Assembly (NCBI RefSeq): GCF_028292965.1
Contig: NZ_JAQGLG010000160.1
Location: forward strand, 1 to 35,043
Reading direction: 5' to 3'
Source of the DNA: Sphingomonas bacterium
GTDB lineage: Bacteria > Pseudomonadota > Alphaproteobacteria > Sphingomonadales > Sphingomonadaceae
Length of the DNA stretch: 35,043 nt
Below the pieces are notes generated by a model. The model had not been told where the DNA came from, did no database searches, and worked only from the letters and a program-made list of their open reading frames with translations. Both the position numbers and the translations under genes were made by a program. Below, piece by piece: positions 8,100 through 10,194 of this stretch (position 1 is its first letter; every line of letters starts with the position of its first letter).

Positions 8100-8402
8100 C
8101 TAGCGGTAGTAGCAACGCTTGTTCGCGGTCATCGTGCGGTCGATCGCACGACCGGCAAAGGCGCCGCCGACGCCACCGGCGATCGTGCCGAGCGCACCAT
8201 GGCCGAGGATCGAATTGCCGACTAGGGCGCCCCCAACGCCACCTGCGACGAGCCCGGCGGTGCCGCTCGAATGACGGCACACCTTGGTGCGATGATAGCT
8301 GCGGCCGCTGTAATAATGCTTCTTGGCATCGGCGCTGGTCGGAATGGTCACGGCCGGAATGGCCAGTGAAACGGCGCTGAGCGCCATGATCAATTTACGC
8401 AT
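8100..8402 (-). CDS. Glycine-zipper (2TM-like) exported protein
   Basis: MRKLIMALSAVSLAIPAVTIPTSADAKKHYY...GLVAGGVGGALVGNSILGHGALGTIAGGVGGAFAGRAIDR; internal start chosen by signal peptide. Confidence 0.8.
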   Translation of the reverse strand: MRKLIMALSAVSLAIPAVTIPTSADAKKHYYSGRSYHRTKVCRHSSGTAGLVAGGVGGALVGNSILGHGALGTIAGGVGGAFAGRAIDRTMTANKRCYYR

Positions 8403-8544
8403 GTGGATTCTCCCTTGTCCGTGAACCGGTGAGATGCAGAACGCGGCATGACGACGGTTCGTTGCATGAACAGGAAAAAACGTTTCGTTCATGTCACGTC
8501 TTGGTTTGCGGCAAGCTGCGCCGCAGCGCACAATTCGCTCCACG

Positions 8545-8562
8545 ATATCCACATTATCCACA
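8545..8562 (+). promoter_or_regulatory. Two adjacent DnaA-box-like 9-mers ATATCCACA-TTATCCACA
   Basis: TTATCCACA (8554-8562) equals the E. coli strong DnaA box; preceded directly by ATATCCACA (8545-8553). Confidence 0.4.
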
Positions 8563-8639
8563 GGCTGCGGATGCGCTTTGGCCATTGGCACGACTCGGAT
8601 TCGATGACACCTTCATGACTGTAAGCGGATGACGACGAA

Positions 8640-9140
8640 GCGGGAAACCGCAGAGAGATCAGAAGCTTATGTCGAAGAAGAGACGAGGACCGCAAGGTTC
8701 GGCGCGCTTCGGAAGACAGGTTCACAGGTTGCTGATGGCCGAGACGTGCGGACGCGCAAGCGTCGGCGTAACGGAAGCAGGAACGGTGGACCGAAACGTC
8801 CCTCCACGTCCCCGCGATCGGGGAAGGACGTAGGCCGTGACGGCCGGATGCGCGACGCTCATCACCGGGCGGAAGGCGGTTCGACATGTAGTGGCCGAGG
8901 CGAAGCGGAAAGGACTTCGGTCCGGAACGCCGAGCTGGCCATCGAGGCCGTGGCGCTGAGGCTCGCAAGAGTATCGCGCCCGGCCCCGGTGACCGAAACG
9001 CAAAGCCTTAGCGTCGTTCGCGGCGCGAGGTGGAGCGGCCGCCGAAACCAGACGGCGCGGTTCGCTTTCTTCGGAAAGTCGGATGAGCGGGTCGAAGTCC
9101 GGCGACAGGGGGTCGGCAGCAATGCCGGCCCCCATTTTCG
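8640..9140 (+). ncRNA. Candidate large structured non-coding RNA ending in a GCAA-capped terminator
   Basis: Serial hairpins with GNRA/UUCG loops: GCGG-GAAA-CCGC, GGACC-GCAA-GGTTC, GACGC-GCAA-GCGTC, GGAC-TTCG-GTCC, GCTC-GCAA-GAGT, CTTTC-TTCG-GAAAG; no coding-like GC3 bias; boundaries approximate. Confidence 0.6.
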
Positions 9141-9143
9141 TTT
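9108..9143 (+). terminator. Rho-independent terminator of the candidate ncRNA
   Basis: GGGGGTCGGCA-GCAA-TGCCGGCCCCC followed by ATTTTCGTTT. Confidence 0.75.
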
Positions 9144-9178
9144 GGGGCACTTCTTTCGCTTTGGCCGACATATTTGTG

Positions 9179-9250
9179 TTCCTGCGAACGCAGGAACCCA
9201 GAGCCACAAGCGTGACGCCCTGTAACCCTGGGCTCCTGCGTTCGCAGGAG
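9179..9250. repeat. Intergenic REP-like palindrome, copy 2
   Basis: TTCCTGCG-AA-CGCAGGAA (9179-9196) followed by CCCAG; mirrored by CTGGG then CTCCTGCG-TT-CGCAGGAG (9233-9250). Confidence 0.75.
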
Positions 9251-9267
9251 AACTGCTAGTGGTTATT

Positions 9268-10194
9268 CTACGCTGCGGCCAGAAGCTGGCGCGCGCGGGC
9301 GCAGTCCGCATCCATCTGCGTGGTGAGCGCCTTGAGCGTGTCGAACTTCGCCTCGGGGCGGAGATAGTCGACCAGTTCGACCCCGATGCACTGGCCGTAC
9401 AGGTCGCCCGAAAAATCGAAGAAATAAGGTTCGAGTAGTTCCACGGGCGGATCGAAGCTCGGCCTGATGCCGAGATTGGCCGCGCCGTCGAGCAGTTGGC
9501 CATCGGGCAGCCGCCCGCGCACGGCGTAGATGCCGTAAGCGGGGCGCAGATAATTGCCGAGATCGATATTGGCGGTGGGAAAGCCGATCGTCCGGCCCAG
9601 CTTTGCGCCGTGCGTCACCACACCCTCGATCGCCCAGGGTCGCGTCAGCAGGCGCGCCGCCTCGCGCGGCTTGCCCGTGGCGAGCATGTCGCGGATGCGG
9701 CTGGACGAGACAGTGCGGCCGTCGAGCGAGACCGGGCCGACCGTCTCGACGGTGAAGCCGTGGCGGCGACCGAGTTCGATCAGGACCGCGACGTTGCCGG
9801 CCTTGGCCTTGCCGAAGGTGAAATCCTCACCTGTCACGACACCACCGACCTGCGCCATCGCAACGAGGCGGGCGACGAATTCCTCGGCGGTGAGTGCGGC
9901 CAGCGCCGCGTCGAAGTGGAACACCATCATCGCATCGGCACCGGCCGCGCCGAACAACCGCTCGCGTTGGTCGAGCGTGGTCAGGCGGAAGGGGGGAGCG
10001 TCGGGGCGGAACAGCCGCACCGGATGCGGATCGAAGGTCGCGACGATCGCCGGCCGTCCCGCGGCCCGCGCTGCGGCGATGGCACGGCCGACCACGGCCT
10101 GGTGACCGAGGTGAAACCCGTCGAAATTCCCCAGCGCGACGATGCCACCGAAGAGATGCGGTGGCAGCGCCGAGCCGCCGTCAAGCCGCTCCAT
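9268..10194 (-). CDS. ribF: Bifunctional riboflavin kinase/FAD synthetase
   Basis: ALGNFDGFHLGHQAVV...VSSSRIRDMLATGKPREAARLL...IGFPTANIDL...AYGIYAVRG. Confidence 0.95.
   Translation of the reverse strand: MERLDGGSALPPHLFGGIVALGNFDGFHLGHQAVVGRAIAAARAAGRPAIVATFDPHPVRLFRPDAPPFRLTTLDQRERLFGAAGADAMMVFHFDAALAALTAEEFVARLVAMAQVGGVVTGEDFTFGKAKAGNVAVLIELGRRHGFTVETVGPVSLDGRTVSSSRIRDMLATGKPREAARLLTRPWAIEGVVTHGAKLGRTIGFPTANIDLGNYLRPAYGIYAVRGRLPDGQLLDGAANLGIRPSFDPPVELLEPYFFDFSGDLYGQCIGVELVDYLRPEAKFDTLKALTTQMDADCARARQLLAAA

Follow-up and report, generated by a model that had tools for sequence, protein, structure and literature searches.

To our knowledge, only a small number of large structured RNAs have been described in bacteria, and most of these have no assigned function. 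The ornate RNAs OLE, GOLLD, ROOL and HEARO are hundreds of nucleotides long, occupy their own transcription units, carry many capped helices and change rapidly in length. In Escherichia coli, nrdAB is a classical DnaA-regulated operon and datA and DARS are sites that titrate or recharge DnaA, while the usual place of the alphaproteobacterial origin is the hemE neighbourhood. Caulobacter crescentus possesses a noncoding RNA, CcnA (CCNA_R0094), which is encoded at oriC and whose presumed activator is CtrA (PMC8959179). Here we describe, from a 35,043-nt stretch of a Sphingomonas genome (contig NZ_JAQGLG010000160.1, hereafter the window), a previously undescribed folded RNA of ~530 nt that occurs across sphingomonads and does not code for protein; both its structure and its locus are well supported. 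Comparison among relatives demonstrates a conserved, independent noncoding unit with a selected RNA structure, a box array at fixed spacing and its own terminator, and we consider it probable that the locus is transcribed independently to give a large trans-acting structured RNA of a new Sphingomonadaceae family with DnaA-linked expression. The family in which the RNA is widespread, usually as a single copy, can be cultured and manipulated genetically, and the RNA offers a clue that other orphan RNAs lack, a replication-type regulatory array at the promoter that is common to ribonucleotide reductase; its role should therefore be directly testable.

The putative complete transcription unit (8536-9139, + strand) would consist of a DnaA-box array, a promoter-like stretch, the structured RNA and a terminator (Table 1). 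The 5′ end of the RNA was placed using the promoter position and the first conserved helix, and the 3′ end using the terminator, which is recognisable in other genera as TGGGGGCYGGCAGCRATGCCGGCCCCCATTT. A first-pass annotation of the window had proposed a structured RNA here, and had missed the upstream array and promoter (8536-8613). The flanking sequence holds two further features: an imperfect palindrome resembling GGTTGCATGAACCTGAAACAACC at 8452-8492, upstream of a glycine-zipper gene, which recurs in several relatives, and a REP- or MITE-like inverted repeat at 9176-9253, immediately 3′ of the terminator.

Table 1. Features of the RNA locus, in window coordinates
Feature	Position	Strand	Evidence or comment
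DnaA-box-like array, 9-bp sites, head-to-tail	8536-8562	+	kept in most relatives
Weak DnaA-box-like site CGCTCCACG	8536-8544	+	
DnaA-box-like site ATATCCACA	8545-8553	+	
Best DnaA box TTATCCACA	8554-8562	+	perfect E. coli-type
Promoter-like region	8585-8613	+	conserved in relatives; consensus TTTGCGCGACTCGG..TCGGTGACAGCATC
TTGGCA of promoter-like region	8585-8590	+	
CGACTC of promoter-like region	8591-8596	+	near-invariant
TGACACCTT of promoter-like region	8605-8613	+	
Structured noncoding RNA	~8620-9139	+	fold z -3.73, covariation, noncoding
5′ domain: GUAAGC (8621-8626) with GCUUAU (8665-8670), around GCGG-GAAA-CCGC (8640-8651)	8621-8670	+	9-sequence alignment; same layout in second lineage
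Conserved GCAA hairpin	8686-8703	+	both full-length alignments; GGUGCC-GCAA/UUCG-GGAAACC in most relatives
Hairpin GACGC-GCAA-GCGTC, variable middle region	8751-8764	+	5 pairs changed on both sides (9-sequence alignment)
Long helix (8795-8810 with 8816-8832), then GGCC hairpin (8833-8845)	8795-8845	+	9-sequence alignment
Long helix GUGGCC..GGCC with UUCG cap (8912-8923)	8891-8942	+	4 pairs changed on both sides (9-sequence alignment)
Helix GAGGCC..GGCCC with GCAA hairpin (8961-8972)	8944-8986	+	4 pairs changed on both sides (9-sequence alignment)
Conserved 3′ domain: CGCCG (9040-9044) with CGGCG (9100-9104)	9029-9107	+	90-sequence alignment
Conserved internal loop AAACCAG/GAAGUC, covarying inner stem and UUCG cap	within 9029-9107	+	
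Intrinsic terminator: 11-bp stem, GCAA loop, T-rich tail	9108-9139 (stem-loop 9108-9133)	+	

When hairpins with stems of 4 bp or more and a GNRA or UNCG loop were counted blind in 8613-9150, the + strand had eight and the - strand one; shuffled versions held 0.84 +/- 0.93, and none of 1000 dinucleotide shuffles reached eight. In a sliding scan over both strands, the locus was the densest 538-nt stretch for such hairpins in the window and the sole one to reach eight, and summed over about 90 homologues the counts were 549 on the + strand, 50 on the - strand and 76 in shuffles. The + strand also folded better than its shuffles (z -3.73), whereas the - strand did not (z -1.14). With the 3′ domain removed, the mean z was -2.21 for the + strand and -1.01 for the - strand over 30 loci, with wide scatter. 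For some relatives the middle region folds no better than shuffles, and the fold of this length-variable part is less certain. The observation made at first pass is confirmed and its reading as a structured RNA supported, with a greater extent than had been noted.

Compensatory changes of paired bases extend this picture. In the 3′ domain, aligned over 90 sequences, pairing held in 93.4% of cells and 18 of 25 pairs (terminator included) had changed on both sides; the covariation score was 0.394, as against 0.170 for shuffles and no more than 0.07 for slid versions. This alignment was fitted to the model and so favours the structure. The two full-length alignments were not fitted to any structure: the nine sequences of the window's lineage show double changes at 42 of 168 pairs (23.3 in shuffles), and a second lineage, represented by 16 sequences, shows them at 54 of 192 (27.6 in shuffles); neither value was reached by any of 500 shuffles. 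Because the full-length structures were predicted from the same alignments, the comparison with slid versions is tilted towards them. Both lineages have a similar layout. A 5′ helix, GUAAG/CUUA(C/U), surrounds a GAAA hairpin; next come a hairpin of the form GGUGCC-loop-GGAAACC, UUCG/GCAA hairpins in a variable set and long GGCC helices, and the 3′ domain with the terminator after it closes the series. Covariation, which the first-pass annotation had suggested looking for, is present in the 3′ domain and in both alignments of full length; it exceeds every one of the 500 shuffles as well as the slid controls, as expected of a structured noncoding RNA. The stem-loops it had listed occur at their positions, but CCCCG/CGGGG (8810-8823) is not the conserved pairing, its place being taken by the helix of 8795-8810 with 8816-8832; its terminator of 11 bp with a GCAA loop is real, with every base pair kept in nine relatives.

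Searching Rfam 15 (4227 models, which should include those for tmRNA, SRP, 6S and the large ornate RNAs) returned no match at the gathering score in the window, in agreement with the first-pass annotation, which recognised no hallmarks of RNase P RNA, tmRNA, SRP RNA or 6S RNA. At E<=10, the region 8300-9500 gave sub-threshold microRNA chance matches only, and the arms of the 9176-9253 inverted repeat were the sole matches below E 0.1, again sub-threshold. RNase P RNA does not lie here: RF00010 has no match at the locus and a single one in the genome, on contig C121 (4385-4751, 300 bits). No description of the RNA was found in the open full-text literature searched.

A DNA search of same-genus genomes recovered the locus with its two ends conserved and its middle variable in length. 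Of 295 same-genus genomes, roughly 110 were matched at E<1e-6 by a covariance model for the 3′ domain, and 138 had one match each to a 5′ model built from sequence alone. Because about half of this sample is without a confident 5′ match, through divergence or true absence, these prevalence figures are lower bounds. Both models matched 38 genomes of other genera in a sample of 301 family genomes, and in 36 of the 38 the two matches shared a strand and followed the expected order, with 196-699 nt between them; 11 of these 36 had supplied loci for the 5′ model, leaving about 25 independent. Among the weak 3′ matches of 35-40 bits in other genera, only those with a coincident 5′ match were counted, since many may be ordinary GC-rich terminators. 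A scan of 11.3 million contigs for the box-and-promoter pattern returned 65 stretches; 62 read as sphingomonads, with taxa including Sphingomonas, Hephaestia, Sphingosinicella and Sphingobium boeckii. Overall, the element occurs in many Sphingomonadaceae genera and is 280-800 nt long, and in most of the ninety loci that were fetched a TTATCCACA-type box occurs once, 240-780 nt ahead of the 3′ domain. Outside the order, a sample of the class yielded no full-length match, and neither nrdA nor uvrC was found near the weak class-level matches of the 5′ model.

Several individual matches depart from this arrangement. The element promoter is duplicated in tandem, head to tail, in three genomes (G569, G532 and G486), and in the G569 pair (L294, 1028-1518) each copy is followed by a matching 3′ domain. 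The window's genome has a second, weak match to the 3′-domain model (contig C250, 99-210, E 2.8e-6); no 5′ match accompanies it, and it may be just a terminator of similar form or lie on a contaminant contig. Six pattern matches in other families of the order carry TTATCCACAG and then CGACTC near uvrC, directly upstream of it in those that were read, and no RNA-like terminator was seen among the pattern matches outside the family.

The distance from box to CGACTC is 36-38 nt in the large majority of about 90 loci, and such consensus boxes at conserved spacing are consistent with a DnaA-regulated promoter. The 9-bp head-to-tail spacing of the boxes is tighter than that of most E. coli oriC boxes. 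Weaker, secondary matches of the 5′ model cover mainly the array, and nrdA (ribonucleotide reductase) adjoins it in all eight loci examined, from eight genomes; NrdR-like repeats seem to be present beside this array in some genomes. The next-best site in the window's genome, with two mismatches and a weaker array, falls on another contig between hemE-like and DUF299-like genes (identified by eye) and is, by analogy, likely to be the oriC of this genome, although reversed-pattern controls give similar counts at this stringency, making it a lead rather than a test. Since nrdA adjoins the array in 8/8 loci and a site occurs beside hemE, we read the array sites as probably real DnaA sites, as their sequence suggests, and production of the RNA is probably tied to chromosome replication because its start signal lies directly beside DnaA boxes.

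The locus itself is not oriC: the ori-proximal marker mnmG lies 0.4-1.5 Mb from the element in 18 complete or near-complete genomes. By the same distance, the element tends to sit near mid-replichore in these genomes, a position that may reflect shared gene order only, the genomes being related. GC skew, sampled in one genome and weak on its own, has no minimum at the element.

By analogy with nrdAB of E. coli, DnaA bound to the array, which adjoins the -35 region on its upstream side, would modulate transcription, and the amount of RNA would then track the initiation of replication or the pool of DnaA-ATP. The transcript is predicted to fold into a multi-helix body capped by GNRA/UNCG loops, in which the conserved 3′ domain, through its internal loop, may dock a protein or RNA partner, and the whole could act as a replication-linked ribonucleoprotein or regulator. 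A protein partner is preferred because the conservation is structural, the alternative being mRNAs as for CcnA. We put forward only tentatively the wider proposal of a DnaA-controlled, family-wide large RNA in sphingomonad replication or cell-cycle control, working as a ribonucleoprotein unlike the described bacterial replication-linked RNAs.

Other explanations account for parts of these data. A base-pairing regulatory RNA that pairs with cell-cycle mRNAs would fit the replication-linked promoter boxes and has a precedent in CcnA, an alphaproteobacterial noncoding RNA at the origin (PMC8959179); we regard it as rather unlikely, given that most of the conserved sequence lies in helices or internal loops, that no long conserved unpaired seed was seen and that the RNA is several times longer than typical base-pairing sRNAs. 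Still less probable is that function resides in the DNA, as a site for binding DnaA and titrating or recharging it, with the RNA as a by-product: tandem boxes at fixed spacing, far from mnmG and near mid-replichore in most complete genomes checked, would suit such a site, yet the boxes keep a fixed distance from a promoter, and covariation at the RNA level together with strand-specific tetraloops along the whole transcript requires selection on the RNA. Large size, many tetraloops, rapid length change and the tandem duplicates in three genomes recall a selfish or phage-borne ornate RNA like GOLLD or ROOL, a very improbable reading for an element that is chromosomal and mostly single copy per genome, and for which no plasmid or phage copies were found.

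We give slightly less credence again to the view that the RNA is a riboswitch or attenuator, acting in cis as the leader of an adjacent gene; the usual layout of such leaders is indeed a structured RNA with a terminator. In the window the orientation contradicts it, the upstream glycine-zipper gene being divergent and the downstream ribF convergent; the RNA has its own terminator, and the neighbours differ among relatives, with OsmC frequent in Sphingomonas, ribF present in only 15 loci, and glycine-zipper, UvrD-like, TamA-like and DUF985-like genes also among the neighbours (apart from OsmC, ribF and uvrC, these were identified by eye). Because of this variation the RNA is most likely trans-acting. 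Finally, a protein-coding gene, for which there are long ORFs on both strands (8629-9225 on the +), is hardly credible: the + strand ORF had been discounted at first pass, substitutions relative to the closest relative found (90% identical) fall evenly on the codon positions (17/20/18) with 1-nt indels, no ORF over the RNA on either strand contains a Pfam domain, and the alignments carry compensatory pair changes.

The preferred reading, a trans-acting structured RNA with DnaA-linked expression, can be set against the known systems as follows. Like CcnA, it is an alphaproteobacterial noncoding RNA whose gene is tied to replication sites, but CcnA lies at oriC, a location that the mnmG distance of 0.4-1.5 Mb and the hemE box cluster on another contig exclude here; moreover, the sphingomonad element has a DnaA-box array at its promoter in place of presumed CtrA activation, and several hundred nucleotides of covarying structure set it apart from CcnA as described. 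It would share with the ornate RNAs a size of hundreds of nucleotides, an own transcription unit, many capped helices and rapid length change, and differs in having no Rfam match, a restriction to sphingomonads in the searches made and a DnaA-box promoter. Class A RNase P RNA (RF00010) is likewise a large GNRA-capped structured RNA, and the GAAGUCCGG string of the element presumably resembles a conserved RNase P segment, yet RNase P RNA is encoded at a separate locus of this genome and its model finds no match at the element. With the E. coli nrdAB promoter the likeness is in the array, the same type of which stands beside nrdA in sphingomonads; there it precedes a protein operon, whereas here it precedes a structured RNA.
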